Source of the DNA: a virus
DNA: 64,000 nucleotides
Strand: one strand, 5' to 3'
IMG/VR virus record: IMGVR_UViG_3300037587_000923
Coordinates: 18,046 to 82,045 of that record
In this document: piece after piece, positions 36,171 to 56,824 of the stretch
Layout: each line of letters begins with the position of its first letter
How positions within the stretch are numbered: position 1 is the first letter of the stretch
Notes under the pieces: generated by a model
Database searches by the model: none
Told to the model about the DNA's origin: nothing
The model's input: only the letters and a program-made list of their open reading frames with translations
Position numbers and translations under genes: made by a program

Positions 36171-36392
36171 ATGAAATACGCAATAGAACAGAGATTAAGG
36201 TTGATAGATTTCCTTCTCTCTCAATACGGGAATGTGAATCGAAGCGCTATAATGGATTATTTCGGGATCGGGGAAGCGACTGCTACCAGAGATTTCGCTG
36301 AATATAAAAAACTTCGGCCTCGGAATATGGTTTATGACGGCAATGACAGAACCTACTATAAGACACAAAACTTTGAAAAAGAGTGGGTTTAA
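36171..36392 (+). CDS. Small winged-helix/HTH regulator
   Basis: 73 residues. A single helix-turn-helix of the DeoR/WYL N-terminal kind: LIDFLLSQYGNVNRSAIMDY then FGIGEATATRDFAEYK, followed by a short wing (NMVYDGNDRTYYKT). Position at the head of the early operon suggests transcription control. Targets unknown; the GCATGC motifs are candidates. Confidence 0.7.
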   Translation: MKYAIEQRLRLIDFLLSQYGNVNRSAIMDYFGIGEATATRDFAEYKKLRPRNMVYDGNDRTYYKTQNFEKEWV

Positions 36393-37703: not shown

Positions 37704-38267
37704 TTGCCTAAGATTTATAAACACAAAGGTAAACTCACGGTCAGCATTAACGGGAATCATGTCAGACTAAAAGATCTTGCTAAGGAAGCTGGTATCTCTT
37801 GGGACACTGTCAGAACTCGCCGTTTCAACGGTATGGCTGAAACCCTAGAAATGGCTTTAAAGCCACCAAAAGGTATGGGTCAATAGTACCTTTCTAGTGG
37901 GTATCCAGCTGTTACTATTAACGGAAACCCAAAACACCTACATATCATAGTTGCAGAGAATGCATTGGGTCGGAAGTTGGGAGGAAAAGAAGAGGTTCAC
38001 CATTTTAACGAGGATAGGTGTGATTTTAGAAATAAGAATCTGGTGATATGTGATGGTAGAGAATACCACCTGTTGTTACACAGAAGAAGGGCTGCATTAA
38101 AAGCTACTGGCTATGCAAGCTCTAGGCGCTGCAAGATTTGTAGAAAATGGGACACCTTGGAGAGTGACGATCTTTATATCGACCCTAGCGGCAAGACTGT
38201 TTTTCACAAAAGCTGCAGAAGGCTGAAACGCAAATCAAAACGAAACACTAAACAGGAGGAAGTATAA
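37704..38267 (+). pseudogene. HNH homing endonuclease interrupted by an in-frame TAG
   Basis: The frame from TTG 37704 stops at TAG 37884-37886 and continues open in the same frame to 38,267. The first part (VRLKDLAKEAGISWDTVRTR) looks like a NUMOD1-type DNA-binding repeat; after the stop it reads LSSGYPAVTINGNPKHLHII and then VHHFNEDRCDFRNKNLVICD, an HNH core with two further CxxC-like cysteines. It is one gene split by one nonsense codon, not two genes. A shorter protein could restart at an internal codon near 37,965. It sits between exonuclease and RecT genes, the usual setting of homing genes. Confidence 0.7.
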
Positions 38268-39403
38268 TGGAAAAAAATAAGGGTCTACAGCTAGTAGATA
38301 AAAAAGAAATGGCAGGGGGTGGTGGCTTTTCTCTTGCTCCAAGTAATCTAGGGGAGGCAATGGAGTTCGCCAAGATGATGGCTAATACAGACATGGTCCC
38401 TCGAGACTACGCTGGAAAACCTGCCAACATAATGATAGCTGTCCAGATGGGAGCCGAGATCGGCCTTAAACCGATGCAAAGCTTACAGAACATATCTGTG
38501 ATCAACGGCAGGCCTAGCGTGTGGGGAGACACCGCAATTGCATTAGTCAGGGTTCACCCTGACTGTGAGTCCATCAATGAATACCTTCTCGATAAAAATG
38601 GTAATAAGACCACTGGTACCGATTACGACACTGCAGTTTGTGTAGTGAAGAGGGCTGGCCAAGACGAAGAGATTAGGACTTTCAGCCTCGCTGACGCCAA
38701 AAAAGCCAGACTTATTGGTAAAACAGGGCCATGGTCTACTCACGAGAAGAGGATGTTGCAGCTGCGAGCTAGAGGTTTTGCTCTCCGTGATGTTTTTCCT
38801 GATGCATTAAAAGGCCTAGCGATTGCAGAGGAAGCTCAAGACTTACCACCTCGAGACATCACTCCTGCCAGGGAAGAAGTATTGACTCCCGAGTTCGATG
38901 TGCCCGTCATAGACACCGGCCGTAGTGTTATGGTTGAGGAGGTTGCCAATGAAGAAGTAGTTGATGCCGCCACTGGAGAGATCACTGAGGGGTCAGAGCA
39001 GAAGTCTGAGTCTGCCAAGATCGAGGATGACGACGCTCTCGATGCAACCGTTACCGGCATGATCGATCGTATTGAGAATATCGGTAATAAGTTCGAGGGG
39101 GATAACTGGCTGACCAAACATAGCTCTGAAATCAACAAGCTTCCGGAAGATGCCAAGGAAGTTGTTATGAACAACTACAAGGGGAAAATGGAAGATCTGG
39201 CATCGGAGGGTGTGGCCAAGGAAGAGGGATCAAAAGGTGACGAAGACTCCCTTGTTCTTGACTACATAAAGAAGCTGGAAAAACCTAAGAGCCTGGAGGA
39301 GCTTGACGCTATATTTGACGAGGCCCAGAATAAAATAAAGACCGGCGCAAAGGTTGTCGCCCTTCGTAAGGTTAGAGACAAGAAGGCACAGGATTTTAAG
39401 TAA
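38267..39403 (+). CDS. RecT-family single-strand annealing protein
   Basis: 378 residues. Residues about 25-190 carry the RecT signature: NLGEAMEFAKMMANTDMVPR, KPANIMIAVQMGAEIGLKPM, SLQNISVINGRPSVWGDTA and HEKRMLQLRARGFALRDVFP. The C-terminal half is acidic and helical. It anneals complementary single strands made by the upstream exonuclease, for recombination-dependent replication. The stop lies right at the first attC-like site, so it borders the cassette array. Confidence 0.88.
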   Translation: MEKNKGLQLVDKKEMAGGGGFSLAPSNLGEAMEFAKMMANTDMVPRDYAGKPANIMIAVQMGAEIGLKPMQSLQNISVINGRPSVWGDTAIALVRVHPDCESINEYLLDKNGNKTTGTDYDTAVCVVKRAGQDEEIRTFSLADAKKARLIGKTGPWSTHEKRMLQLRARGFALRDVFPDALKGLAIAEEAQDLPPRDITPAREEVLTPEFDVPVIDTGRSVMVEEVANEEVVDAATGEITEGSEQKSESAKIEDDDALDATVTGMIDRIENIGNKFEGDNWLTKHSSEINKLPEDAKEVVMNNYKGKMEDLASEGVAKEEGSKGDEDSLVLDYIKKLEKPKSLEELDAIFDEAQNKIKTGAKVVALRKVRDKKAQDFK

Positions 39404-39537
39404 CATTGGCATTGAGGGGCCGCCGGATTGATGGCAACCTCTTTCAAAAACTGAGTGGCGGGGAAAGCCGACTCCTGTAAAAATCAGACAGATGTTTAGG
39501 CGGTCACTCTCGAATAACTGGTTATGAAACTTGGAGG
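39398..39537 (+). repeat. attC-like site A (array left border)
   Basis: Starts AAGTAAC at the RecT stop and ends GTTATGA. Arms GTAACATTGGCATTGAGGGG and the complement of CGGTCACTCTCGAATAACTG pair loosely, with GAG and CCGCC in register. Long central part of about 90 bases, as in VCR-size sites. Weakest of the fully paired sites. Confidence 0.5.
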
Positions 39538-39543
39538 TAGAAA

Positions 39544-39744
39544 ATGAACACTACAGAGCAACGCATGGCGGCAATATTTAACGAGTGGGCAAAACGTTAT
39601 TCTGAGAACCCTGACGCTTTCGGGCCTATATTTGATGATGAGGGGAAGCCGGTCACCGACTATGGAGTAAGATGCGCACGCTATTTCAAAAAGGTAGCCG
39701 ATGAAATGGACAGCAAGGGGATATTACCCGCACCTGTTTCATAA
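39544..39744 (+). CDS. Cassette ORF 1, hypothetical
   Basis: 66 residues, ribosome site GGAGGT. EQRMAAIFNEWAKRYSENPD then GPIFDDEGKPVTDYGVRCAR; short helical protein, no known fold, though this type (small, solute-like, many aromatic residues) is common among integron and phage hypotheticals. Its TAA stop is inside the CATAAC box of site B. Confidence 0.65.
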   Translation: MNTTEQRMAAIFNEWAKRYSENPDAFGPIFDDEGKPVTDYGVRCARYFKKVADEMDSKGILPAPVS

Positions 39745-39801
39745 CGCTTGAGGTAAGCGGAACGAGCGTAGCGAGTTTCCCACTTGAGCGAATTGTTATG
39801 T
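39739..39801 (+). repeat. attC-like site B
   Basis: 63 bases from TCATAAC to GTTATGT. CGCTTGAGGTAAGCGGAA pairs with the complement of TTTCCCACTTGAGCG with a few unpaired bases, around AGCGTAGCGA. Textbook attC shape and size. Confidence 0.88.
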
Positions 39802-39831
39802 TGAAACTTTTAACTATAGGAGATGCTGATA

Positions 39832-40155
39832 ATGACACCTGAAATTAATAAAAAATATTTAATTACGACCGATAATTGGTTTTTGGCACCTGATGGGAAT
39901 AGTTATCGCGCAGTATTTGGAACTGTCATAGGAATACAAACAGACGAAAATACATTGGGAGTTAAAACGAATAGAAGCTCGACAAACTGGTATGTTGCTA
40001 TCGGGAATATGTTGATCGCTGGTTGTCAAATACATTATGTAATCCAAGTGGATGAGGTAAGCTTTAACGCACCTAATAGAGAAATAGAGCACGATGGTAA
40101 ATTAACTAAAGAGAGGGAAAGCATAACAAGAATATATAATGCCGATGAAACATAA
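39832..40155 (+). CDS. Cassette ORF 2, hypothetical
   Basis: 107 residues from ATG 39832 (TAGGAG 10 bases upstream); an in-frame ATG at 39,823 overlaps the ribosome site. AT-rich compared with flanking phage genes. YLITTDNWFLAPDGNSYRAV and WYVAIGNMLIAGCQIHYVIQ suggest a small beta-rich protein. Stop lies in the left box of site C. Unknown function. Confidence 0.65.
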   Translation: MTPEINKKYLITTDNWFLAPDGNSYRAVFGTVIGIQTDENTLGVKTNRSSTNWYVAIGNMLIAGCQIHYVIQVDEVSFNAPNREIEHDGKLTKERESITRIYNADET

Positions 40156-40348
40156 CGATTGAACTAAACTGCGGCGAAAGGAGAATATCATGAAATGGGA
40201 ATGTGGAAATTGTGGACACAAGGTTACTGAAAAAGAAACTGTTGAAGGTGGGAATAAAGAATGGAAATGCCCTAAATGTTCTAATATCAATAAGCATGAA
40301 AAAAAGAAAAGCGCGTTGAGCCGTCAGATTTGAGTGACTGGGTTAGGC
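40150..40348 (+). repeat. attC-like site C with an ORF inside
   Basis: Left arm CATAACGATTGAACTAAACTGCGGC (40,151-40,175, key bases only) pairs with the complement of CCGTCAGATTTGAGTGACTG, ending in a classical GTTAGGC box at 40,342. The 130 bases between the arms encode a 47-residue zinc-ribbon protein. Confidence 0.65.
40190..40333 (+). CDS. Rubredoxin-like mini zinc-ribbon protein inside site C
   Basis: 47 residues with GGAGAATATC upstream of ATG 40190. Two CxxC pairs: MKWECGNCGHKVTEK and EWKCPKCSN, then a basic tail. A compact zinc ribbon. The stop and last codons lie in the right arm of the attC-like repeat. Confidence 0.6.
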   Translation: MKWECGNCGHKVTEKETVEGGNKEWKCPKCSNINKHEKKKSALSRQI

Positions 40349-40371
40349 CGCACGAACCTTAGGAGGTAAGT

Positions 40372-40560
40372 TTGGAAAAGCCAGAATATTTAAAAGATGA
40401 ACATTTAAAATATCTAAATGAGCTGAAAGAAACCAAAATGGTACCCATGTTTGGAGCAGCATCTACCTTGAGATTATATTATGATTATCTGACAAAGGAG
40501 CAAGCCAGGAAAATATTAGCCTATTGGATAGACACATTTCAAGAGAGACATGCGGCATAA
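40372..40560 (+). CDS. Cassette ORF 3, hypothetical
   Basis: 62 residues from TTG 40372 behind a perfect AGGAGG. Helical (EYLKDEHLKYLNELKETKM, then LTKEQARKILAYWIDTFQER). Its TAA overlaps the left box of the next site. Function unknown. Confidence 0.6.
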   Translation: MEKPEYLKDEHLKYLNELKETKMVPMFGAASTLRLYYDYLTKEQARKILAYWIDTFQERHAA

Positions 40561-40757
40561 CAATTGAACTGTGCCGCTTGCAAAATTAAAGGAGAAAACC
40601 TATGAGTGGAGTTATAGACTTACCCTGTGGATGCACAATGGATGATTATTCAGGACTAGCACTTTATGTTTGCCAAGCGTGTAGAGAGCGCAAGAAGAGG
40701 CAAGAGACTTCAGAACGCGACAGCGTTTTGCAAGTCGGAACCAGTGATGGGTTAGAC
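40555..40757 (+). repeat. attC-like site P, crossed by an ORF
   Basis: Left arm AACTGTGCCGCTTGCAAAAT (40,567-40,586) pairs with the complement of TTTTGCAAGTCGGAACCAGT, with unpaired bases, and the right box is GTTAGAC at 40,751-40,757. The next ORF starts in the loop and runs out through the right box. Confidence 0.65.
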
Positions 40758-40916
40758 TGCCCCCTTTGTGCGAAGATGGGGCCGAAAGAAGTTTATGAAA
40801 AGTGGGGCTTTGATTATGAAGCAAGATATAAAGACACATGCAAAGCGCATAGACCGCTAATGCTTGAGAGAATGGAAGATGGACTGAACAAGTTGAAAGA
40901 GCTTCTGGCAGACTAA
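40602..40916 (+). CDS. Cysteine-rich cassette ORF 4
   Basis: 104 residues, AAAGGAG before ATG 40602. Three cysteine pairs: LPCGCTMDD, YVCQACRER and DCPLCAKMG, then a helical C-terminus. The first 50 residues are coded inside site P and the rest by the cassette following its right box, so the protein may be a fusion made by cassette joining. Metal binding likely; role unknown. Confidence 0.6.
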   Translation: MSGVIDLPCGCTMDDYSGLALYVCQACRERKKRQETSERDSVLQVGTSDGLDCPLCAKMGPKEVYEKWGFDYEARYKDTCKAHRPLMLERMEDGLNKLKELLAD

Positions 40917-41000
40917 CAAGACAAGCTAAGGGGCTTGAACGAACGCAGTGAGAGAAAGTCCAAGGAGTGAAACGACTGTCTTTGAGCGCCTGGGTTATGT
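40911..41000 (+). repeat. attC-like site D
   Basis: 90 bases, GACTAAC to GTTATGT. Arms AAGCTAAGGGGCTTGAACG and GACTGTCTTTGAGCGCCTGG with central AAAGTCCAAGGAG. Identical from TAAC onward to site I at 43,242. Confidence 0.85.
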
Positions 41001-41272
41001 TTTTTGATATGACAGGGCAAAAAATCGGAGGTTATTATGGACGACATAGCAATAAATGAAGGTCAAAAGATATTTGAAGAAAGATATAAAAAGGGATTTC
41101 CAAAAGTGATATTTGGGGAGACGCACATCTCAATTCCTTGCACTTGCGACGATGGCGGTGGGCCTATTCACTGGGCAACAGTGCAGAACAACATAAGATC
41201 GATAGAAGAACATTTCCGGCATGAGGAGACTTTGCGTGAATTAAGGAAAATGGATAGGGACAAAACATAACG
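40914..41272 (+). repeat. 359-bp direct duplication, copy 1
   Basis: Identical by eye to 43,242-43,600. It covers all of site D after its first three bases, the 77-residue ORF and the left box CATAACG of the next site; flanks differ immediately outside. The unit therefore runs from one left box to the next left box. Confidence 0.9.
41037..41270 (+). CDS. Duplicated cassette ORF, copy 1
   Basis: 77 residues after CGGAGGTTATT. Acidic/basic mixed helical protein: MDDIAINEGQKIFEERYKKG, GETHISIPCTCDDGGGPIHW, then NNIRSIEEHFRHEETLRELR. CTCDDGG with a nearby His may bind metal. Identical copy at 43,365-43,598. Function unknown. Confidence 0.7.
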   Translation: MDDIAINEGQKIFEERYKKGFPKVIFGETHISIPCTCDDGGGPIHWATVQNNIRSIEEHFRHEETLRELRKMDRDKT

Positions 41273-41355
41273 TTGCCCTTAACCCGCACCTGAGCCAAGT
41301 TCCTATGAAATTGGAGACACCTTTAGGTGTCGGTGGTTCAAGGGCTTGGTTATAA
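41265..41355 (+). repeat. attC-like site E
   Basis: 91 bases, ACATAAC to GTTATAA. GCCCTTAACCCGCACCTGAG pairs well with the complement of TAGGTGTCGGTGGTTCAAGG; a GACACCTTTAGGTGTC hairpin sits in the loop. Strong site. Confidence 0.88.
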
Positions 41356-41376
41356 AACTTATCTTACGGAGGACTT

Positions 41377-41544
41377 ATGAAAGCTGAAATAAAGAAAGAT
41401 GGATTTATTTGGATAACCGCTGAAGACGCAACAGAGGCATTCGCGCTTAATCATTTAGTGCCAGTTGGTGACAAGGCGGAGGTGTGTAAAGAGTGCAACC
41501 AGGTTAAAATACCCGTTGTTATAGATGCGAGCGTATTAAACTAG
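41377..41544 (+). CDS. Cassette ORF, small hypothetical
   Basis: 55 residues, ribosome site CGGAGGA. MKAEIKKDGFIWITAEDATE, then a knuckle VCKECNQVKIPVVIDAS. A small beta protein with one CxxC. Not recognised. Confidence 0.6.
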   Translation: MKAEIKKDGFIWITAEDATEAFALNHLVPVGDKAEVCKECNQVKIPVVIDASVLN

Positions 41545-41550
41545 GCAGTT

Positions 41551-41611
41551 TTATAACGAACAAGTTAAAGGGACGCTGGAACAGCGTTCCGCTTTGAACG
41601 CCTGGTTCTGA
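41551..41611 (+). repeat. attC-like site F
   Basis: 61 bases, TTATAAC to GTTCTGA. GTTAAAGGGACGC pairs with the complement of GCGTTCCGCTTTGAACGCC. The right box has C in place of a purine but fits otherwise. Confidence 0.75.
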
Positions 41612-41636
41612 GGCGTGTAACTTAAAAGGAGAAGAC

Positions 41637-41768
41637 ATGAGACTGATAATTTTAACACTTGGAATATGGGCATTGATGCATGTTGGATTTGACTTCGACT
41701 GGATGAGGGTTTTATGGACTATGGGGCTGACTGTTTATGCCGCATGGTATGATTTAATAAAGCCTTAG
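41637..41768 (+). CDS. Cassette ORF, small membrane protein
   Basis: 43 residues, AAGGAGA upstream of ATG 41637. Two hydrophobic helices (LIILTLGIWALMHVGF and VLWTMGLTVYAAWYDLI) joined by DFDWMR: a membrane hairpin. Small membrane proteins are common in cassette arrays. Function unknown. Confidence 0.6.
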   Translation: MRLIILTLGIWALMHVGFDFDWMRVLWTMGLTVYAAWYDLIKP

Positions 41769-41825
41769 AACGCCTGAGGTAAGCGGAAGCCGGAACGGCT
41801 TTCCGACTTGAGCGATTTGTTAGTT
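41765..41825 (+). repeat. attC-like site G
   Basis: 61 bases, TTAGAAC to GTTAGTT. CGCCTGAGGTAAGCGGAAGC pairs with the complement of GGCTTTCCGACTTGAGCG. The arm sequence is closely related to site B. Confidence 0.88.
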
Positions 41826-41855
41826 TGGATCTTGACTTTAAGGAGAGGCGACTAA

Positions 41856-42707
41856 ATGGCAAGAATTAAGTATACACAATGTATGGTAAGAGACTGCGAA
41901 AAGCCCCATCTATCTAAAGGCTTCTGTAATAGGCATTATCAGCAAATGTGGAAGCATGGACGCATTCTGCCTGATGCGGTGCCTATTGAAGACTTGGCCG
42001 GAGAGTTATGGGCTGACATTGAAGAGGCTGAAGGGTATCAAGTTAGCAATATGGGGCGTGTTAAGTCTCTTGTGGGCCGTGGCGGGTTAATAAAGCCACA
42101 GATCGAACAAAGGGGGCACATGAATACCCCTAAGAAGCGTGTCTATTTAGACAGGAGGGCAACAAGAGGCTGGGTTAAATTCTTGTATGTTCACCTAGAG
42201 GTAGCCAGGGCCTTTATCCCTAATAAGTTTGACAGCGCCCACACGACCTTTAAAAACGGGGATGCCTTAGACTGCCGTGCTGATAATATCGAATGGTGGT
42301 GGGAGAATCCACCTGTAGATGATGATGGGTTGATTCAGTTTAGAAAGTCGGTTCATTCTGAATTAGGGAAAAAGGTTCTGGCCTTTATTGATGGCAACCA
42401 GTCTGCCCTCGATAGTTTCGTAATGCAAAAGACTGACAAGATGAGGAAAATACTACAGAGTAAATTCAAAGGGGTCTGCGGAGACAATGTAAACGAAGCG
42501 GTGCACGTTGCTTTCAGTGAAGGCATGAGAGACATTAAACGCGGATTGCTTAGGGCAGACACACATATAGAAAACTGGTTCCTTCGGATTGCAGAGAACC
42601 AACTATTGGATGATATTAAAAAGAACAAGCACACTACATCTCAATGGGGCTGCAATGGTAATGGCGACGAGTTCGACAAATTTGATTTAATGGCGGCAAC
42701 AAACTAA
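41856..42707 (+). CDS. NUMOD4 / HNH-like protein with sigma-region-2-like C-terminus
   Basis: 283 residues. N-terminal C..C...C..H knuckle (CMVRDCEKPHLSKGFCNRHY), then NUMOD4 (ELWADIEEAEGYQVSNMGRV), then an HNH-like segment (VHLEVARAFIPNKFDSAHTT, with GDALDCRADNIEWW). Residues about 195-265 (NVNEAVHVAFSEGMRDIKRG and ENWFLRIAENQLLDDIKKNK) resemble ECF sigma region 2. Could be a DNA-binding or homing protein, or a regulator built from homing parts. Carried as a cassette between sites G and H. Confidence 0.6.
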   Translation: MARIKYTQCMVRDCEKPHLSKGFCNRHYQQMWKHGRILPDAVPIEDLAGELWADIEEAEGYQVSNMGRVKSLVGRGGLIKPQIEQRGHMNTPKKRVYLDRRATRGWVKFLYVHLEVARAFIPNKFDSAHTTFKNGDALDCRADNIEWWWENPPVDDDGLIQFRKSVHSELGKKVLAFIDGNQSALDSFVMQKTDKMRKILQSKFKGVCGDNVNEAVHVAFSEGMRDIKRGLLRADTHIENWFLRIAENQLLDDIKKNKHTTSQWGCNGNGDEFDKFDLMAATN

Positions 42708-42788
42708 CTATGAATTAACCAGTGGCCCGACCAAGCCACACTGAAAACGGACACGCCTCTTGCCATCTGGTTGAATGGCGTGTTATAA
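42702..42788 (+). repeat. attC-like site H
   Basis: 87 bases, AACTAAC to GTTATAA. ATGAATTAACCAGTGGC pairs with the complement of GCCATCTGGTTGAATGG. Good arms, standard size. Confidence 0.85.
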
Positions 42789-42812
42789 ATTTTGCATTAG
42801 GAGGGTAATTAG

Positions 42813-43244
42813 ATGAGAGGATATGCGTGTATAGGGTTGGATAACCCCAAGGCGGCAGTTAACGTAGGATCGGCTTTGAGAGCCGCAGGGTGCTATGGGG
42901 CTGCAATGGTGGCTATGACGGGCAACCGGAGCGGAAAGACACCCACTGACACCATGAAGCAGTATCGACATAGGCCGTTGTTGCGCGTTGAAAATTTGAA
43001 AGATGTTATTCCTTATGACTGCGTGCCTGTGGCAGTTGATTTGATAGAGGGAGCTATTCCATTGCCAGAGTATGAACACCCCGAAAGAGCCTTTTATATC
43101 TTCGGGGCTGAAGATGCCACCCTGGGCGAAAGAGTGACATCTTGGTGCAGGGACACTATATATATTCCCACTAACGGTTGCATGAATCTAGCAGCAACGG
43201 TTAATGTGGTGCTATATGACCGGCTTGTTAAGCAAAATTTATAA
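42813..43244 (+). CDS. SpoU/TrmH-family RNA 2'-O-methyltransferase
   Basis: 143 residues covering the whole SpoU catalytic fold: motif 1 NVGSALRAAGCYG, motif 2 FGAEDATLGE, motif 3 IPTNGCMNLAATVNVVLYDR, the trefoil-knot SAM site. Methylates ribose 2'-OH in tRNA or rRNA; the substrate cannot be told. Shorter than most SpoU proteins because it lacks the N-terminal RNA-binding domain. Ribosome site TAGGAGGG. A cassette gene between sites H and I. Confidence 0.88.
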   Translation: MRGYACIGLDNPKAAVNVGSALRAAGCYGAAMVAMTGNRSGKTPTDTMKQYRHRPLLRVENLKDVIPYDCVPVAVDLIEGAIPLPEYEHPERAFYIFGAEDATLGERVTSWCRDTIYIPTNGCMNLAATVNVVLYDRLVKQNL

Positions 43245-43328
43245 CAAGACAAGCTAAGGGGCTTGAACGAACGCAGTGAGAGAAAGTCCAAGGAGTGAAA
43301 CGACTGTCTTTGAGCGCCTGGGTTATGT
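43239..43328 (+). repeat. attC-like site I (identical to D)
   Basis: TTATAAC to GTTATGT. Apart from its first three bases it is the same as site D, but here it follows the SpoU gene, not the cysteine-rich ORF. Confidence 0.85.
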
Positions 43329-43600
43329 TTTTTGATATGACAGGGCAAAAAATCGGAGGTTATTATGGACGACATAGCAATAAATGAAGGTCAAAAGATA
43401 TTTGAAGAAAGATATAAAAAGGGATTTCCAAAAGTGATATTTGGGGAGACGCACATCTCAATTCCTTGCACTTGCGACGATGGCGGTGGGCCTATTCACT
43501 GGGCAACAGTGCAGAACAACATAAGATCGATAGAAGAACATTTCCGGCATGAGGAGACTTTGCGTGAATTAAGGAAAATGGATAGGGACAAAACATAACG
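43242..43600 (+). repeat. 359-bp direct duplication, copy 2
   Basis: Second copy of 40,914-41,272, offset 2,328 bases, no difference seen. Ends in CATAACG, after which the sequence differs (ATTGAC here, TTGCCC in copy 1). Confidence 0.9.
43365..43598 (+). CDS. Duplicated cassette ORF, copy 2
   Basis: 77 residues, identical in sequence and ribosome site to 41,037-41,270. Being unchanged, the duplication is young or kept by gene conversion. Confidence 0.7.
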   Translation: MDDIAINEGQKIFEERYKKGFPKVIFGETHISIPCTCDDGGGPIHWATVQNNIRSIEEHFRHEETLRELRKMDRDKT

Positions 43601-43626
43601 ATTGACTATATGGACATTTAATGTTG
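43593..43626 (+). repeat. Orphan left half of an attC-like site (J)
   Basis: ACATAACGATTGACTATATG has the left box and arm shape of site C, but no convincing right arm was found in the next 200 bases. Marks the right end of the array. Confidence 0.45.
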
Positions 43627-43635
43627 GTGTGAATT

Positions 43636-44007
43636 GTGAATAAGTATTATAAGCAAGTAAAATATAGACAGAATCAGAGAGATAAAAAAGAATGTTACCG
43701 TTTAAATTCTACTGATACGATTAGGGAATCTTATTATCAGCCACCTGAATTTAGAGGATTGAGGATATATGGAGATTGTGATCTCGGTTATCTTAGACTT
43801 ATTTACATTTCTCTATGGGAATGTGGACGTTTAGATTCCTATTACATACGCAACGAAAAAGTAGAAAATATTGGTAAGCGTCCAAAATTAAATGATGACA
43901 ATAGCGATTGGTGGATTGACAGTAATGGAAATCGTAAAAAATATGGCAAGGTTAATCTTGATAAGAAAATAAGAGAACTGATGCCGAATATAAGGAGGGC
44001 GGATTGA
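43636..44007 (+). CDS. AT-rich hypothetical protein at the array's right end
   Basis: 123 residues from GTG 43636, no clear ribosome site. Rich in Tyr, Asn and Arg (KYYKQVKYRQNQRDKKECYR), AT-rich codons unlike the phage core genes and like several cassettes. May be the last cassette gene. The stop overlaps the next start. Confidence 0.5.
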   Translation: MNKYYKQVKYRQNQRDKKECYRLNSTDTIRESYYQPPEFRGLRIYGDCDLGYLRLIYISLWECGRLDSYYIRNEKVENIGKRPKLNDDNSDWWIDSNGNRKKYGKVNLDKKIRELMPNIRRAD

Positions 44008-44504
44008 TGAATTGCTTCCTAGGTAGGGTATACGACGACAAGCATGCCACTTGCATTTCCTGTATTAGGGCAGGAGAGAAGACTTGTAAGCAGGTCAAGA
44101 AGAAACGTAAGGCCCACGATATTCATACAGTTATGGCTGAAGGCAAGTGGCTTATGTGTACTAAAGACCTCAGAACCCCTAATGACTGGACCAACAAGAT
44201 GTACGGTAAGAAGATTTATAGGGGAGAGAGGTCTGCCTGGGAGAAACAGTTCAGAGGGATAATCCATTTATGGGGTAAGGCGTCAGGTAAGAGGCGCCTT
44301 ACCGTTATACGGTATGTTCCTGACAAGCGGTATCTCATGAAAGATAAGACCAATAGAGAGGGAGCCATGAAGCCTCTTGAGGATGCGCTTGTTAATCAAG
44401 GAGTACTTGTTGACGACAGGGATGAGTTCCTGGAGCGTGCCGACCTCAGGCAAGAGATAGATCCGGCAAGAGTAGGGGTAGCTATCTTAGTGGAGGATAT
44501 TTAG
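44007..44504 (+). CDS. RusA-like Holliday junction resolvase candidate
   Basis: 165 residues from ATG 44007 with AAGGAGGG. N-terminal CISCIRAGEKTC knuckle; the core ends with DKTNREGAMKPLEDALVNQG then VLVDDRDEF, the acidic RusA pattern (D-x-DN-x-x-K-x-x-x-DAL and DD). RusA resolves recombination junctions as a dimer. Fits beside exonuclease, RecT and helicase. The N-terminal knuckle is an extra. Confidence 0.65.
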   Translation: MNCFLGRVYDDKHATCISCIRAGEKTCKQVKKKRKAHDIHTVMAEGKWLMCTKDLRTPNDWTNKMYGKKIYRGERSAWEKQFRGIIHLWGKASGKRRLTVIRYVPDKRYLMKDKTNREGAMKPLEDALVNQGVLVDDRDEFLERADLRQEIDPARVGVAILVEDI

Positions 44505-44517
44505 GCATGCTGAAAAA
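44499..44517 (+). repeat. Second copy of the 19-base GCATGC motif
   Basis: Identical to 35,726-35,744, overlapping the end of the RusA-like gene and lying 57 bases before a TTGACA box. Confidence 0.5.
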
Positions 44518-44519
44518 AA

Positions 44520-44557
44520 ATTGCCTGGAGATAGTAATATATGACGACAAAGGCAAT
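44520..44557 (+). terminator. Inverted repeat after the RusA-like gene
   Basis: ATTGCCT and AGGCAAT pair perfectly over a 24-base loop. No T-run immediately after (TTGTTTTTC follows 6 bases later), so a leaky terminator is possible. Confidence 0.3.
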
Positions 44558-44573
44558 AGGTGTTGTTTTTCTC

Positions 44574-44602
44574 TTGACACCCTTTTCATTACTTTGATAG
44601 GG
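44574..44602 (+). promoter_or_regulatory. Promoter candidate for the replication genes
   Basis: A perfect TTGACA at 44,574-44,579; 15-17 bases on lies TGATAGGG, a poor -10. Expression may need an activator, perhaps acting at the motif 57 bases upstream. Would transcribe the structured leader and the replication operon. Confidence 0.4.
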
Positions 44603-44627
44603 TGCGCTTACATTCCAATTTAACCTT

Positions 44628-44748
44628 TTGACAGAGGTACGAAGGATCAAATGAAAACCACTTTTAAACATAGAGAAGCCCACTCGAGCCAGAGCAATCT
44701 GGAGCAGGTCCCTTTTGGTCCACCTGTCTGTCAACTCGTGTGGGCTTC
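44628..44748 (+). ncRNA. Structured leader RNA candidate
   Basis: GAAGCCCACTCGAG (44,675-44,688) pairs with CTCGTGTGGGCTTC (44,735-44,748) over 14 positions with one mismatch. Inside, CCAGA-GCAA-TCTGG is a perfect stem with a GNRA loop stacked on the outer helix, and CAGGT/ACCTG forms a third helix: a three-way junction. Upstream TTGACAGAGGT (44,628-44,638) can instead pair with ACCTGTCTGTCAA (44,722-44,734), which would break the third helix. The region is not a tRNA. It lies 40 bases before the replication organiser, so a switching leader or separate small RNA are both possible. Confidence 0.6.
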
Positions 44749-44787
44749 TGTGTGTTTAGCCCAATCCCAAAGAAATAAAGGTGTTAT

Positions 44788-45612
44788 ATGAGTAGATCAA
44801 GACGATGTAAGGCCGGGCTGGACTACTTCTCGTTTGATGTTGATTTCTTTGACGACGAGAAAATTGAGTTCGTATCAGCCAGATATGGCTTGAAGGGCGA
44901 GGTAATTTCCATAAGGCTTTTGTGTCGGATTTACCGTAATGGTTATTTTATTAAATGGGGTGATGATGAAAGCTTGCTATTCGCAAAGCGTGTCGGAGAC
45001 GGTGTCACTCAAGAAGATGTTAAGTGTGTTGTTGACGAGCTGTTCAAGAGAGAGTTCTTAAGTAAGTCTTTATTCGATAAATGTGGCATCCTTACATCAG
45101 GCGGAATTCAAAAGAGATATATCCAAGCAACCGAACGTAGGAAAGGTGTGGAGATGATTAAGGATTATATAGCTGTAGACATTACAGATTACGATGTAGA
45201 CATTTTAGAATTAAATGATGACATTTCAAAACAAAGTAAAGTAAAGGAAAGTAAAGTAAAGGAAAGTAAAGAAGACTATAAAATTTCTTTCTCTGAATTC
45301 TGGGAGGTATATCCTAGTCGTAACGGTAAAAAGATAGATAAGCCTACCACTAAAGATAAGTTCTATAAATTAAAACCTTCGGATCTGTCAGACATTATTG
45401 TGGCAGTCCATAACTACAAAGACAGTGAATTAGTTAAACAAGGAATTGGCATTAAAGACCCTCATAGATTTATTAGCAACAAAGACAATAAAGAGTTTTG
45501 GAAAGAATGGATGAAGCCTGAGATTAATAATAGCAAGAAACAAAAGAGCCCATATGAAGCCCAAAACGAAACTAGGGCTTATCATAAACCAATTAAAAAC
45601 AGAGGACTATAA
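44788..45612 (+). CDS. Replication organiser candidate (DUF4373 / Lin1244-like N-terminus)
   Basis: 274 residues. Residues 1-130 match, from memory, the DUF4373 (Lin1244/Lin1753) winged-helix domain: LDYFSFDVDFFDDEKIEFVS, GLKGEVISIRLLCRIYRNGY. Residues about 150-165 are a KVKES repeat; residues 170-260 look like the C-terminal helical part of phage DnaD/organiser proteins (FWEVYPSRNGKKIDKPTTKD). Coupled to DnaB, so it probably loads the helicase at the phage origin. Confidence 0.75.
   Translation: MSRSRRCKAGLDYFSFDVDFFDDEKIEFVSARYGLKGEVISIRLLCRIYRNGYFIKWGDDESLLFAKRVGDGVTQEDVKCVVDELFKREFLSKSLFDKCGILTSGGIQKRYIQATERRKGVEMIKDYIAVDITDYDVDILELNDDISKQSKVKESKVKESKEDYKISFSEFWEVYPSRNGKKIDKPTTKDKFYKLKPSDLSDIIVAVHNYKDSELVKQGIGIKDPHRFISNKDNKEFWKEWMKPEINNSKKQKSPYEAQNETRAYHKPIKNRGL
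45233..45271 (+). repeat. 15-base tandem repeat inside the organiser gene
   Basis: AAAGTAAAGTAAAGG is repeated about 2.6 times and encodes KVKESKVKESK. In lambdoid phages the origin is inside the initiator gene as short repeats, so this purine-rich stretch is a possible origin or only low-complexity coding. Confidence 0.5.
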
Positions 45613-51430: not shown

Positions 51431-51439
51431 AGAAGCAAA

Positions 51440-51500
51440 CATAATGATTAAGCTAAACCGCCGCGCCATTTGCGGTCGGATTTTCAGCGCCTTGTTATGG
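51440..51500 (+). repeat. attC-like site K
   Basis: 61 bases, CATAATG to GTTATGG. AAGCTAAACCGCCGC pairs with the complement of GCGGTCGGATTTTCAGCGC. The left box has T in place of C, otherwise standard. Confidence 0.75.
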
Positions 51501-51531
51501 CGCACTTACCCTAAAGAGAAAGGAAAAAGTG

Positions 51532-51717
51532 ATGGAAAAAATAGAAGTAAGTTTAGAACCTTTAGTCAGATTGCTTGGAGCAGTGAGTGGGCCACCACAT
51601 TTAATTAGAGAACTTCAGGCGACAAGAGGCCCGTTGGTTGGCGATGACAATCCGATAAATATTTTGATAGATGAATATAACAAAGTGATTAAAAAGAAAG
51701 GAGGTGATGTAAATTGA
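51532..51717 (+). CDS. Cassette ORF, hypothetical
   Basis: 61 residues from ATG 51532, AAAGGA upstream. MEKIEVSLEPLVRLLGAVSG, then a basic end IDEYNKVIKKKGGDVN. Small helical protein. The stop overlaps the start of the following TTG gene (TTGA), so translation is coupled. Confidence 0.6.
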   Translation: MEKIEVSLEPLVRLLGAVSGPPHLIRELQATRGPLVGDDNPINILIDEYNKVIKKKGGDVN

Positions 51718-51893
51718 GTTATTCATTGAATCACCCTTGTGGGGATTGCACCAAGGCGGATAAGTGTAATGATCGACACTTTATCCAAGGTGGAATCAAC
51801 GGGATACATGACGTATACCCGTCTGAAAAAGGGCATCTCGGTAGTGGCACCGTAACTATTGAATGTTCGCAGCATGAAACAAAAGAAAAGTAG
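51714..51893 (+). CDS. Small cysteine protein of a common phage type
   Basis: 59 residues from TTG 51714 behind a perfect AGGAGGTGAT. LSYSLNHPCGDCTKADKCND then HFIQGGINGIHDVYPSEKGH and VTIECSQHET. A widespread short phage protein with four Cys and several His; role unknown. Shares the cassette with the ORF before it. Confidence 0.7.
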   Translation: MSYSLNHPCGDCTKADKCNDRHFIQGGINGIHDVYPSEKGHLGSGTVTIECSQHETKEK

Positions 51894-51899
51894 TAATTT

Positions 51900-51926
51900 G
51901 GCGCGGCCTTGTAATGAGGCTGCGCC
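51900..51926 (+). terminator. Hairpin before site M
   Basis: GGCGCGGCC pairs with GGCTGCGCC (one G-U) over a 9-base loop, ending at the first base of the CATAAC box. A cassette-borne terminator without T-run, or part of an extended site. Confidence 0.4.
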
Positions 51927-52048
51927 ATAACGCTATTATCAGCGGCCGCATTTAGAAAGGAAACTTATGGACAAGAAAACGACACCAGAAAGCAACACAG
52001 ATCAATTAAGCACCGTGGTTAGCGGTCGGTTGCATAAATTGGTTATGA
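51926..52048 (+). repeat. attC-like site M, crossed by an ORF
   Basis: 123 bases, CATAACG to GTTATGA. GCTATTATCAGCGGCCGC pairs with the complement of GCGGTCGGTTGCATAAATTG. VCR-like length. The following ORF starts in the loop with a good ribosome site and runs out through the right box. Confidence 0.68.
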
Positions 52049-52263
52049 GACCAGGCCCCGGATGGCATCACTTAGGCGGCGCAGTATGGCAACATGATAA
52101 TGGATCTAAAATACATGTTGGTGGCTTGATGGTATACCCCCATAACGGGGAAATAATAAGGCACTGGGAGCAGCTTGAAATAGTGAATAAGCTTATCAAA
52201 ATTAACGGTGGGAATAGAAAGCGTGGATTAATGGCATGGGCCATGAACTTAGCGGTGTCATAA
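51967..52263 (+). CDS. Cassette ORF starting inside an attC-like site
   Basis: 98 residues from ATG 51967 (AAAGGAAACTT). The first 26 residues are coded by site M; residue 27 is the ATG inside GTTATG, an alternative start with no ribosome site. Core VMRPGPGWHHLGGAVWQHDN then GLMVYPHNGEIIRHWEQLEI. The DNA suggests that the site supplies the translation start for whichever cassette follows. Confidence 0.6.
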   Translation: MDKKTTPESNTDQLSTVVSGRLHKLVMRPGPGWHHLGGAVWQHDNGSKIHVGGLMVYPHNGEIIRHWEQLEIVNKLIKINGGNRKRGLMAWAMNLAVS

Positions 52264-52300
52264 CACTTAGCTCTCCGAAGGAGGAGCGTTGAGGTTATGT
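52259..52300 (+). repeat. Short attC-like site N
   Basis: 42 bases from CATAAC (stop codon inside) to GTTATGT, closed by GAAG: ACTTAGCTCTCC pairs with the complement of GGAGGAGCGTTGAG. Identical to site S at 55,751. Confidence 0.72.
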
Positions 52301-52327
52301 TGCTCACGGAATTAACAGAGAGGAAGC

Positions 52328-52453
52328 ATGGAAGACGAGATAGAGGACGGGGTAACAATAAAGACCAACGTGCCAGTCAAGGAGTTTCTTGTCGATGCTT
52401 TAATAAATTTGGGTATGCTCTTGCTGGGAATAGTACTAAGTAAAATATTTTAA
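52328..52453 (+). CDS. Small single-span membrane protein
   Basis: 41 residues from ATG 52328. Acidic start (EDEIEDGVTIKTN), then one hydrophobic helix (FLVDALINLGMLLLGIVLS). Follows site N; may be a cassette gene. Function unknown. Confidence 0.5.
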   Translation: MEDEIEDGVTIKTNVPVKEFLVDALINLGMLLLGIVLSKIF

Positions 52454-52464
52454 GGAGGTTGTGA

Positions 52465-52764
52465 GTGACTGAATTTGATTTCGATATAAATGAGGAGTTG
52501 GAGGAGATCAAGGTAAGCTCCCTCCTTCGTAGCGTTACAGAGAAAGGCAGGGCCCTTCTCTTGAAGAGATTACTGGGGCCCCTTCTGACGCCTGGCATAT
52601 TAACTCCCAAGGAAGCGGCATTCTTCTTCCTAAACGCCGCGCTTGATAAAAGCCCCAAGATGATAGCTAAGAGCTTTAAGTGTGACCTGTCCGGGGTCTA
52701 CTCTATCCTCAGCAAGGCCGAGAATAAGATAAGGGAACATAGGAAAAACAATGAACGGATATAG
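52465..52764 (+). CDS. Small HTH protein, sigma-region-4-like
   Basis: 99 residues from GTG 52465 behind AAGGAGG. LTPKEAAFFFLNAALDKSPK, then MIAKSFKCDLSGVYSILSKA resembles sigma region 4 or LuxR-type HTH. No region 2. Could regulate or act as a packaging-related DNA binder. The end overlaps the next start. Confidence 0.6.
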   Translation: MTEFDFDINEELEEIKVSSLLRSVTEKGRALLLKRLLGPLLTPGILTPKEAAFFFLNAALDKSPKMIAKSFKCDLSGVYSILSKAENKIREHRKNNERI

Positions 52765-53383
52765 AGCAAGGATCGATATGATCGGAAAGATATTCGGGGC
52801 ATTAACAGTGATAGGGTTCAGCTATAAAGATAAATTCAATAAAGCTCGCTGGAACTGCCGGTATGAATGTGGTTCCGGGAAAATTGCTGAAGGCTCAAAA
52901 TTACGCAAAGGTGAAATAAAGTCTTGTGGTTGTCTTACGGTAAAATTAATAAGCAAAGGCTTGACCACTCATGGCATGTCAAAAAGCAAAATATATAAAA
53001 TTTGGTCAAGCATGAAAAATAGATGCAATAACCAAAGAGATCCAGCTTATGTTTGGTATGGAGGTAGAGGCATAAAGATCTGTGCCCGCTGGATGAAGTT
53101 TGAGAACTTCCTTATTGATATGGGAGAGCGCCCAGATGGCATGTCTATAGAACGCAAAGACAACAATGGCAACTACGAGCCTGAAAATTGCAAGTGGGCG
53201 ACAAGAGAAGAGCAGGGAAGAAACACAAGCCGTAATGTTTTTATCACATTCAATGGCGAAACACTCCACACATCAGAGTTTGCTAGGAAAGCAGGGATGA
53301 GCCCAGCCTGCTCGCACAGTAGATTAAGGTATGGTTGGCCCATAGAAAGGGCTCTCAATGAGCCGGTAAGAAAACGGCAATAA
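52751..53383 (+). CDS. Homing-endonuclease-like protein (AP2/HNH type)
   Basis: 210 residues. GKIFGALTVIGFSYKDKFNK is the phage-typical N-terminal domain with CRYECGSGK and SCGCL; the middle SIERKDNNGNYEPENCKWAT is the signature of a phage HNH/AP2-like homing family; an HTH-like end (SEFARKAGMSPACSHSRLRY) follows. Free-standing homing genes cut unoccupied sites in related phages. Confidence 0.75.
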   Translation: MNGYRARIDMIGKIFGALTVIGFSYKDKFNKARWNCRYECGSGKIAEGSKLRKGEIKSCGCLTVKLISKGLTTHGMSKSKIYKIWSSMKNRCNNQRDPAYVWYGGRGIKICARWMKFENFLIDMGERPDGMSIERKDNNGNYEPENCKWATREEQGRNTSRNVFITFNGETLHTSEFARKAGMSPACSHSRLRYGWPIERALNEPVRKRQ

Positions 53384-53393
53384 GGAGGTAAAG

Positions 53394-53555
53394 TTGAACG
53401 GGAAGAAATCGAAGAAAATTAATGATCTAGCAAGGAGCCTACTCGCGGAGGTAGCTGCCAAGGATATATCAGAAGAAGAGAGGACCCTTGTGTTGAGTGA
53501 GATACGAAAGAAACTAAAGCGAGACTATAAGGCTGGGAGATTGGTGTTTAAATGA
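53394..53555 (+). CDS. Small helical hypothetical protein
   Basis: 53 residues from TTG 53394 after a strong AAGGAGG. Basic start (NGKKSKKINDLARSLLAEV), acidic middle and a basic end. The stop overlaps the next start (ATGA). Function unknown. Confidence 0.55.
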   Translation: MNGKKSKKINDLARSLLAEVAAKDISEEERTLVLSEIRKKLKRDYKAGRLVFK

Positions 53556-53830
53556 AAGACATTGTAATAATAGAGGGCCTCAGGAAAGAAACCTTTCTCT
53601 ACAAAGACGCTATCTCTGAAGCGATAAAGAAGTTGGGGGAGAGTCACCCGGTCGCATCTAAACTTGGAAGGGTTCTCAAGCTGGCCAAGTATCAGCCTAT
53701 TCCTTGTAAGAGATGCGGGCGCACCCTAAGGAACCCCAAGGCCATACAGAGAGGCATGGGTCCCAGGTGCTACGAGATACATATTGAAGAGTCTCAGAGT
53801 GATATATCTTTCAAGAAGGAGACCGTATGA
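53552..53830 (+). CDS. Zinc-binding protein, DUF6011-like
   Basis: 92 residues. PIPCKRCGRTLRNPKAIQRG then MGPRCYEIH is a C..C...R..G.GP.C pattern matching, from memory, the DUF6011 family of phage proteins. The first half is helical. Function unknown; translationally coupled on both sides. Confidence 0.7.
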   Translation: MKDIVIIEGLRKETFLYKDAISEAIKKLGESHPVASKLGRVLKLAKYQPIPCKRCGRTLRNPKAIQRGMGPRCYEIHIEESQSDISFKKETV

Positions 53831-54096
53831 GTAAGCGCGAAAAGAGACTTGGACTCCTCTATGAGGATGATATCAAGTATTCGAAAAGTGAAATCGCCGA
53901 GATGTGGTTTCACTACAGGGTGGCCAAGCAGTATGCCTGCATGGGAGACGTGTGTGAACGCATAGCTTCCTTTGCTTTAACCGAGCAGGAATTCACCCAG
54001 ATGGATTATAAAGAGAGCGTGCCCTCAAACAGGTCTCCTTACTGGATAGAGACCATTGAAGTGCCAAGGGGCTTCGCAGAGAGGGAGATTTATTGA
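53827..54096 (+). CDS. Hypothetical protein
   Basis: 89 residues, helical, basic at start (MSKREKRLGLLYEDDIKYSK). One CMGDVC pair. It overlaps both neighbours by four bases (ATGA). No recognised fold. Confidence 0.6.
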   Translation: MSKREKRLGLLYEDDIKYSKSEIAEMWFHYRVAKQYACMGDVCERIASFALTEQEFTQMDYKESVPSNRSPYWIETIEVPRGFAEREIY

Positions 54097-54407
54097 TGAT
54101 AGGTTTTCCTAAAGAGAAGACGTTTAGGTCAGAGGAGTATAAGGATTATATCCGGTCGCTCCCTTGTTGTAATCCTAATTGCCCCAATCATGGCCGCTTA
54201 CCTAGCGAGGCTCATCATACTGAAAAATCCGGGACTGGCTGTAAAGGATCTGACCTTAGCTGTATTCCTCTCTGTTGTCATTGCCATGTGCCTGGCGTTC
54301 ACACCATGGGTCACATCACGTTTCAGCAGCGCAACAATGTGGACTTCAACAAAGTGCAAATCAAGTGTTTGTCTGGCTTTATAGAGAAGGAGTTGATTAA
54401 TGATTAA
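54093..54407 (+). CDS. HNH-type nuclease candidate (DUF968-like)
   Basis: 104 residues. Zinc knuckle CCNPNCPNHG, then EAHHTEKSGTGCKGSDLSCI and PLCCHCHVPGVHTMG: the His-His and Cys pairs match phage DUF968/NinG-style HNH proteins linked to recombination. Probably a small metal-dependent nuclease. Overlaps its neighbours. Confidence 0.65.
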   Translation: MMIGFPKEKTFRSEEYKDYIRSLPCCNPNCPNHGRLPSEAHHTEKSGTGCKGSDLSCIPLCCHCHVPGVHTMGHITFQQRNNVDFNKVQIKCLSGFIEKELIND

Positions 54408-54765
54408 GGATGTAACCCCGGTAGTATTCTTAGTTGATAATAAAAAACACGCCATAACCCTTAATTCGTTTGAGCTTGTATATAAGAACTCTCCCATGGA
54501 GCGCACCGAGATAACGGGAGAGATATCGTTTATGGCCGTAGACCACCAACAGAAAATACTAATATCCAAGCCCATGCTAGTTATTCACCTAGGGACCTCA
54601 GTGCTAACGGCTGTCATTAAGGAATACGCTATTCTCCACAACAGCTTGATGAATTCTGGTATGACATCAGCTGCCACCTCATCAGAGTGTAGAGTAGAGT
54701 ATGAAGTTATAGACGAAGAAGAAAGAGACCCTTTCATCGCAGCAGTGGAGGAGGCCGTCTCGTGA
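54400..54765 (+). CDS. Hypothetical protein
   Basis: 121 residues, mixed alpha/beta (TPVVFLVDNKKHAITLNSFE). No motif. Coupled to the HNH gene and the next zinc protein by short overlaps. Confidence 0.55.
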   Translation: MIKDVTPVVFLVDNKKHAITLNSFELVYKNSPMERTEITGEISFMAVDHQQKILISKPMLVIHLGTSVLTAVIKEYAILHNSLMNSGMTSAATSSECRVEYEVIDEEERDPFIAAVEEAVS

Positions 54766-55052
54766 CATTGGAGCTTTTTAAAATACCAGAGCATGTCAAG
54801 GCTCGGCAAGCCAACCCCAACCCTATGGTGAGGAAGGGCGGAATCCTCAAAGGATATAAGTGTGGTAAATGTGAGCATCTCCTAGTCACCGAAAGCCCGG
54901 CAGGTAAGAGATTTTTCAAGTGTCGCCATAGGGGCGTTACTAGCGGAGCAGCGACAGACCACAGAAAGGGATGGGATGCCTGTGTATTGTATTCCGAGGA
55001 AGGCGAACTCCCTTTCGTCACAGAAGTCAGGAGGGCCAGTGCCAGCCACTAA
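54762..55052 (+). CDS. Zinc-ribbon-like hypothetical protein
   Basis: 96 residues from GTG-type start at 54,762. YKCGKCEHLLVTESPAGKRF then FKCRHRG and WDACVLY suggest one zinc site. Basic N-terminal half. Overlaps the next gene by 14 bases. Role unknown. Confidence 0.6.
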   Translation: MTLELFKIPEHVKARQANPNPMVRKGGILKGYKCGKCEHLLVTESPAGKRFFKCRHRGVTSGAATDHRKGWDACVLYSEEGELPFVTEVRRASASH

Positions 55053-55293
55053 ATCTAATTACGGCAAGAAGGTCGAAAGTCTCGATGACCTCCATAAGCT
55101 AGTCCAGGCGAGGAGGGCCGTGATCTGTCCCGGGAACAACGGCGCCATAGTACCAAATACAAACGTGGCAGCAGCGTGGGTCTTTAACTTAAACGGAGGC
55201 TCGTTATATAGAGTATTTAAAGCCGGCCTCTATACCTACGAGAAGGTCGATAAGTTTATAAAGGCAGTCGAGGAGGCTGTTGAGTCAACATAA
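55039..55293 (+). CDS. Small hypothetical protein
   Basis: 84 residues from GTG 55039, chosen for its AGGAGGG site. ESLDDLHKLVQARRAVICPG, then AAAWVFNLNGGSLYRVFKAG and a helical end. The stop is inside the left box of site O. No known motif. Confidence 0.6.
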   Translation: MPATKSNYGKKVESLDDLHKLVQARRAVICPGNNGAIVPNTNVAAAWVFNLNGGSLYRVFKAGLYTYEKVDKFIKAVEEAVEST

Positions 55294-55498
55294 CATGGGA
55301 ATTCAGGGGCTTTTGCCGACAGGAGGAGATGGAAAGATGGATAAGTGTGAAAATAAAAAATGCCCAGACAATGATGACTGGTGCAGTAAAGGATGCAGAA
55401 GTATAAGCATGAGCATGTCGATAGGCCATTGCCCAGATTACCTTACAACTAAAAAAGATCCATCGGCAGAAAGTCCAGCCTGCAATGTGGGGTTATAA
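55288..55498 (+). repeat. attC-like site O enclosing a whole ORF
   Basis: ACATAAC to GTTATAA, 211 bases. ATTCAGGGGCTTTTGCCGA pairs with the complement of TCGGCAGAAAGTCCAGCCTG with three unpaired bases. The arms are strong; everything between is a 53-residue gene. Confidence 0.68.
55337..55498 (+). CDS. Cysteine-rich mini protein inside site O
   Basis: 53 residues from ATG 55337 (AGGAGGAGA). Eight Cys: MDKCENKKCPDNDDWCSKGC, then GHCPDYLTT and SPACNVGL. Likely metal-binding or disulfide-rich. The last codons and stop form the right arm and box of the repeat, so coding and recombination site share bases. Confidence 0.6.
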   Translation: MDKCENKKCPDNDDWCSKGCRSISMSMSIGHCPDYLTTKKDPSAESPACNVGL

Positions 55499-55501
55499 AT
55501 T

Positions 55502-55747
55502 ATGTGTGATTGGAATAACACGGTAGTTTTGGAAACTGCAAGCGGAAAGAAAGTGGACGTTGATGGCTGTATAGCACCCCTTGTAAGCGCCTTAAATGCC
55601 GCTGGCATAGAAACGATAGCTTGCTGCTGTGGACACGGAAAACGCCCCGGCAATATAGCATTAAAAGACAAGAGAGAATTAATTATTGCACCAGACTACA
55701 AAACAGGGAGAGAAATTGACAGGGCGTTTCCCCCTATAAACGATTAA
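55502..55747 (+). CDS. Cassette ORF, small Cys-rich protein
   Basis: 81 residues from ATG 55502 right after the GTTATAA box, no obvious ribosome site. VDGCIAPLVSALNAAGIETI then ACCCGHGKRPGNIALKDKRE: the CCCGHG segment recalls small phage proteins with a metal-binding turn. Function unknown. Confidence 0.6.
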   Translation: MCDWNNTVVLETASGKKVDVDGCIAPLVSALNAAGIETIACCCGHGKRPGNIALKDKRELIIAPDYKTGREIDRAFPPIND

Positions 55748-55748
55748 T

Positions 55749-55791: not shown

Positions 55792-55826
55792 TGCTCAACT
55801 TAAGATAGGGGCATGAGGCCCAGAGG

Positions 55827-56771: not shown

Positions 56772-56824
56772 AGGTCTGCAGGGATGAAGGTACTTTTACC
56801 CAAGATAACTGAGAAATTAGTTGA

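Follow-up and report, generated by a model that had tools for sequence, protein, structure and literature searches.

An integrase-less array of reversed integron-type gene cassettes in a tailed phage, and related arrays in other phages

Background

Clusters of attC sites lacking an integron integrase (CALINs) are already known from phages: Qi 2023 reported 17 of them, as attC-bearing cassettes in phage genomes without an integrase gene (intI), and five of the six phage attCs tested in that study recombined with IntI1 (PMC9892861). In chromosomal integrons the attC bottom strand is kept on the leading-strand template, an orientation that favours stability, and inverting a chromosomal array raises cassette excision and loss (PMC11023631). 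Here we compare with these systems a window of 64,000 nucleotides, bases 18,046–82,045 of the 82,045-base IMG/VR viral record IMGVR_UViG_3300037587_000923, in which short plus-strand genes alternate with imperfect inverted repeats from 39,398 to 43,600. Taking the explanation as a whole, we consider it very probable that the interval 39.4–43.6 kb holds about ten gene cassettes set into the early recombination/replication operon of a phage. With equal confidence we read it as an array that lacks an integrase and is composed of reversed cassettes, accompanied by a second cluster at 51–56 kb. The sites, their polarity, cassette-sized duplications, a pool of attCs and cassettes shared between phages, and phages that carry IntI and have the same reversed layout were all observed.

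Like the CALINs of Qi 2023, the window carries attC cassettes without intI. That study noted only divergent attC directions, in phage P12002L, and its text makes no mention of genes opposing attCs (PMC9892861), whereas the genes of the window oppose them uniformly. Sedentary chromosomal integrons (e.g. those of Vibrio) and class 1 integrons share with the phage arrays the attC structure, the R'/R'' boxes, the G↓TT crossover (the arrow marks the point of exchange) and cassette duplication; in the phage arrays, unlike in these integrons, gene polarity is inverted relative to attC, which lies 5' of the gene.

Results

A covariance model (R1) was built from 19 known attC sites aligned by their known R- and L-box pairing; their sources were plasmid-borne class 1 integrons, the Shewanella integron of prophage M16-3 and one IMG/VR contig whose intI is class-1-like. 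An unfiltered scan of positions 38,000–45,000 generated eight matches, of 41.2 to 9.0 bits, all on the minus strand and all coinciding with repeats listed in a preliminary description of the locus; the top plus-strand score in the same interval was 7.8 bits, and five other phage loci (L002, L004–L007) gave no match at E ≤ 1. The preliminary description had reported nine two-armed repeats, a duplicate and an orphan half, all in one orientation. Every one of these is present in a common orientation, although two (C and P) have long loops that hold an open reading frame (ORF) or the start of one. It had also taken the sites for plus-strand attCs, a reading overturned by the minus-only matches: the genes are reversed compared with normal cassettes. 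The sites on which it had let the assignment hinge behave as attCs under the model, B, E and G lying far above the R1 noise and H scoring moderately.

The R''/R' boxes pair as RYYYAAC/GTTRRRY, as seen in the R1 matches and in counts of stem pairs, and sites B, E, F, G and P, aligned to R1 on the minus strand, show both L-box pairing and the extra unpaired base in the L'' arm. Across 54 distinct phage attCs, pairing in two stems amounts to 83%, and double-sided changes in these stems were counted in 137 cells versus 60.6 in shuffles, a comparison tilted toward the model because the alignment was fitted to it; the covariation is lost when the pairing partners are slid. Site D, missed by R1, is 84–86% identical to three sites of another phage record (G010); for two of these, R1 returns 35.1 and 28.1 bits. 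Folding energy alone proved a poor test, several R1-supported sites being unremarkable, and a two-sided attC pattern was set aside as too strict. We conclude from their sequence that the repeats are attC-type recombination sites, the folded bottom strand of which IntI would use. With eight model-supported sites within 3.4 kb, the locus is a CALIN (at least two clustered attCs and no intI in the record), and the proposal of an integron-type cassette array without an integrase is borne out by the R1 matches, by the duplication described next and by the lack of IntI in the record. A complete integron, with intI and attI beside the array, is not present in this record.

Read on the minus strand, the sites display the known attC box order, as in site B (CATAAC-AATTCGCTCAAG...CTCAAGC-GTTATG). 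The cassette unit is delimited by an exact duplication of 359 bp (40,914–41,272 = 43,242–43,600), in which identity stops at the R' core on both sides; this is the duplicate that had been recognized before, and it comprises site D together with its gene. Since the duplicated unit consists of attC D and the gene 3' of it, it equals one cassette if the attC is on the minus strand and does not if the attC is on the plus strand. An independent duplication in G010 likewise begins and ends at TAAC cores and consists of an attC and the gene 3' of that attC. A mobile unit of cassette size with ends at R' cores is thus found in both the window and G010; the canonical cassette, with the gene on the attC strand and attC at its 3' end, is not, and every gene beside the attCs of the window is on the opposite strand. 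In gene direction, as these boundaries indicate, a cassette is C + attC + ribosome-binding site (RBS) + gene + TAA, with attC 5' of the gene, and the predicted crossover falls directly after the stop codon, TAA↓C being the complement of G↓TTA. With genes and attCs on opposite strands, the recombinogenic bottom strand of attC coincides with the coding strand.

Three related arrays adjoin intI. The IntI family model TIGR02249 matched above its cut-off in G001 (397 bits), G010 (347 bits) and G025 (468 bits). G001 encodes major head, tape-measure, tail-fibre and endolysin proteins and G010 terminase, portal and tail-sheath proteins, which identifies both as phages; G025, a 9.3-kb contig, is less surely one. 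The G001 IntI contains the patch specific to integron integrases and clusters with them, away from XerD (99/98 support), and the G010 intI (L043:3938–4941) has a frame break near 4105 that is due to decay or to an assembly error. In all three records the attCs are directed outward from the intI 5' end, the usual integron arrangement, and the cassette genes point toward intI. The preliminary description had supposed a host-supplied integrase, which may be too narrow, given that the arrays of G001 and G010 adjoin phage-borne intI. In G001, a sequence of 59–68 bp starting from a TAAC core just before intI (L008:548–614) occurs again at 9107–9174, where it heads a second small array, the one that holds an HNH endonuclease cassette. 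This repeated sequence is a likely attI candidate and, if real, would be a third sign of minus polarity. In the window, this position belongs to J (43,596–43,640, minus strand), the orphan half of the preliminary description: it is a single R' core that heads the array and, to judge from its place, may act as attI; a 123-aa gene stands where intI would be. The sequence after J and this gene are partly conserved in the phage record G008 (66% protein identity).

Phages that otherwise differ have attCs and cassettes in common. Between phages, attC types show 79–91% aligned identity and their flanks 43–62%, that is, the flanks are unrelated; counted across and within phages, attC types are 79–98% alike, again with unrelated flanks. 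G007 and G008 share one attC without a single difference between R' and R'', next to different genes. The HNH gene, conversely, is common to the window and G001 from box to box, with attCs that differ on both sides, and a 73-aa gene that stands without boxes in the window (36,171–36,392) has a DNA homologue, 76% identical, in G001 (L030 3119–3340), where it forms a boxed cassette. The repeats are therefore not fixed terminators conserved in place, the outcome that would have spoken against the original proposal. We conclude from these sequence comparisons that whole cassettes move and that genes and attCs also swap partners at the boxes.

The generality of the reversal was assessed in a set of records assembled from the window outward. 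The HNH cassette gene, used as bait, retrieved G001; a DNA motif of one attC type retrieved five further IMG/VR records with 5–8 attC matches each; and the published phage MW202573 was added to reach the first eight viral records, window included. In these, 121 of 128 genes flanking 66 attCs oppose the attC (single gene caller). The comparison set consisted of class 1 plasmid integrons, 12 loci from bacterial genomes that this motif had retrieved, a pair of prophage integrons and the mixed viral contig L017; there, 14 of 102 genes flanking 52 attCs oppose the attC and 88 are on its strand (Fisher 2e-39, on non-independent counts). A second motif, not derived from that attC type, yielded six additional records, of which five are reversed and one is ambiguous, which brings to 12 the viral records beyond the window that show reversal (pattern scans plus one published phage). 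At the level of records, 13 phages are reversed and two normal (TJE1 and Rctr41k), versus none of 17 comparison loci (Fisher 3e-7); this count omits the ties L021 and L052 and the mixed L017, G026 and PH101, and it describes a non-random sample, both motifs being derived from the window or G001 and some records being short contigs of unchecked viral status. P12002L was not counted as reversed, as it has no R1 match, nor was PH101, in which directions are mixed. Among the CALINs of Qi 2023, MW202573 (L025, 2069–3738) is reversed in the present analysis, all its flanking genes opposing the attCs, and TJE1 is not.

Other searches covered annotated phages, where megablast and short distant searches found neither the array nor its attCs. 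With RecT or DnaB as the query, the only relatives retrieved were distant ones, which lack attC. A recombinase common to all these phages is ruled out, five of the eight having no tyrosine recombinase match. In phage H101 (NC_029094, L086; 76.5–78 kb of the record), the annotated genes beside attCs are all opposite to them, but the reverse direction is taken by one ORF that lacks annotation and has a good ribosome-binding site.

PHROGs matches in the window include a head maturation protease, a large terminase (weak) and tail proteins, as well as a RecT-like annealase, an exonuclease, a RusA-like resolvase and DnaB, and these structural and replication/recombination genes identify the record as a tailed phage. 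The main array is bounded by recT, which ends at 39,403, and by the 123-aa gene, which starts at 43,636. Unless stated otherwise, the attCs that follow are on the minus strand and the genes on the plus strand. Most cassette genes, and recT too, end in TAA with C directly after. The last site in attC polarity is the weak attC A (39,398–39,527; R1 9.0 bits), the R' core of which (plus-strand TAA↓C) is the recT stop codon. The preliminary description had pointed to the neighbouring recT, and a role of RecT in the array is suggested by that adjacency only. Cassette gene A (66 aa, 39,544–39,744) has its TAA stop at the R' core of attC B (39,739–39,801; 41.2 bits), which is followed by gene B (110 aa, 39,823–40,155, stop TAA↓C). 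AttC C (40,150–40,348; 13.6 bits) has a loop of about 150 nt that contains a 47-aa zinc-ribbon-like ORF (40,190–40,333, plus strand), with weak Pfam zinc-ribbon matches under the cut-off; gene C (62 aa, 40,372–40,560) stops at TAA↓C. In the loop of attC P (40,555–40,757; 19.7 bits) lie the RBS and start of gene P (104 aa, 40,602–40,916), which crosses the L''/R'' half and stops at TAA↓C. AttC D (40,914–40,999), assigned by its identity to the G010 sites, precedes gene D (77 aa, 41,037–41,270, stop TAA↓C), for which a search with the protein as bait found no relatives.

Next come attC E (41,265–41,355; 28.7 bits, DNA fold z −4.2) and gene E (55 aa, 41,377–41,544), then attC F (41,551–41,611; 27.8 bits) and gene F (43 aa, 41,637–41,768), to which a cassette segment in G007 is homologous (76%). 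AttC G (41,769–41,821; 29.6 bits) precedes gene G (41,856–42,707), which encodes the 283-aa HNH endonuclease with NUMOD4 and is 90% identical in DNA to G001 from box to box; the C-terminal part of this protein also has a weak sigma-70 region 2 match, under the cut-off. AttC H (42,702–42,788; 19.5 bits) is followed by gene H (42,813–43,244), for a 143-aa RNA methylase of the SpoU/TrmH family (PF00588, 54.8 bits), and the array closes toward J with attC I (43,242–43,327) and gene I (43,365–43,598), exact copies of attC D and gene D.

The preliminary description captured the main array and missed a second attC cluster at 51,439–55,883, with attCs again on the minus strand and genes on the plus strand, and an outlying copy in the record. 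The cluster comprises attCs at 51,439–51,500 (24.5 bits), 51,925–52,048 (17.7 bits) and 55,793–55,883 (15.2 bits, DNA fold z −3.8). The second of these belongs to a type also present in G001, G006, G007, G008 and G009 (79–91% identity), and its loop holds the RBS and start of a gene (51,967–52,263) that crosses its L''/R'' half and stops at TAA↓C. A short attC-like hairpin, with weak R1 scores on both strands, is present as two identical 47-bp copies (52,258–52,300 and 55,749–55,791, listed on the minus strand) beside different genes. Directly after the cluster lies an IS605 OrfB/TnpB-type gene (383 aa, TNB domain, 56,821–57,972). The outlying copy, upstream of the window (L002:15449–15518, record positions ~15,449–15,518), is a degenerate attC B, 93% identical over 56 bp, with a broken R' core.

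Discussion

Within the literature searched, outside which lie most subscription papers and all preprints, no report of a recurrent reversed-polarity phage integron was found; phage CALINs are already known. In Treponema-type integrons, intI and the attCs are oriented alike. The integron of phage Rctr41k resembles the intI-bearing reversed phages in that intI and cassette genes are co-directional, but its attCs also point the way of intI, beyond the intI 3' end, whereas in the reversed phages the attCs leave the intI 5' end and the genes alone are flipped. The phage cassette genes run toward intI, so that they could not be transcribed from an integron Pc promoter.

An IntI supplied in trans, by a co-resident phage, a lysogen or the host, would fold and recombine the window sites, new cassettes entering at the 43.6-kb end. 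Expression of the cassette genes would come from read-through of phage early transcription and not from Pc. The identity of coding and bottom strand may favour exposure of the bottom strand as single-stranded DNA, and should early transcription and the replication fork proceed in the same direction, the reversal would place that strand on the lagging-strand template. Alternatively, the reversal may have arisen because the array is co-transcribed with intI.

Several points weigh against this explanation. No IntI was detected in the 82-kb record, the best TIGR02249 match reaching 26–27 bits with a cut-off of 265. The tyrosine recombinase that the phage does encode (record 16848–17849) was considered as the cassette recombinase and rejected, being far under the IntI cut-off; it shows no relationship to the second recombinase of G001 either, a XerD-like protein. 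R1 gives weak scores for sites A, C, D and H or misses them, the gene calls were made by a simple script, and the recurrence of attCs without their genes, and of the HNH gene without its attC, is unexplained by simple IntI exchange. For the window array, cassette excision and capture are predictions from the sequence.

The separate recurrence of genes and attCs would fit the strongest competing explanation, which we hold possible but rather unlikely: the repeats would be former IntI sites, with exchange now occurring mainly by homologous recombination between TAAC/GTTA boxes or attC stems through the phage RecT/exonuclease, genes and attCs moving separately. The attC-only identity of G007 and G008, the HNH gene between different attCs, the 73-aa gene boxed in G001 and unboxed in the window, and the recT and exonuclease genes adjoining the array are all in its favour; yet both exact duplications span complete cassettes, the product expected of IntI, homologous recombination would have very short boxes to work with, and IntI is itself encoded by some of the phages that have arrays of this kind. 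An ordinary CALIN derived from a host chromosomal integron, with genes and attCs in the same orientation, is improbable. Phage-captured fragments of chromosomal integrons have been published alongside phage CALINs (PMC9892861) and stop codons do fall within the boxes, but its polarity is already refuted by R1 and the duplication boundaries, which place attC opposite the genes, and in bacterial loci retrieved by the same DNA pattern the attCs share a strand with most of their genes. Least probable of all is that the hairpins are RNA elements (terminators, mRNA stabilizers or translation leaders) spreading as mobile regulatory hairpins, for although they lie between co-directional genes, some carry an RBS and start codon and some recur alone, they match the attC model in sequence and stem layout down to the unpaired base in the left arm, match no family in an Rfam scan, are duplicated twice as whole cassettes cut at R' cores, and adjoin intI in three related arrays.

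Returning to reversed cassettes recombined by IntI, a broader proposition is about as likely to be right as wrong: that tailed phages have an integron class of their own, in which IntI, attI and attC array are as usual and the cassette genes are inverted into an operon that runs into intI. Cassettes would pass from phage to phage in a common pool, kept from bacterial integrons by polarity, and phages without IntI would draw on it in trans. If the polarity rule is true, phages run integrons by a logic other than that of bacteria, early transcription reading the cassettes, and the layout that phage arrays use may be the one with greater cassette mobility. The arrays also provide many small early genes of phages that could be screened, for instance for counter-defence functions. 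The changes of partner between genes and attCs bear on the unsolved origin of gene cassettes, and if the phage integron class is real, the separate reshuffling at the R boxes would allow the making of cassettes to be watched in these arrays.

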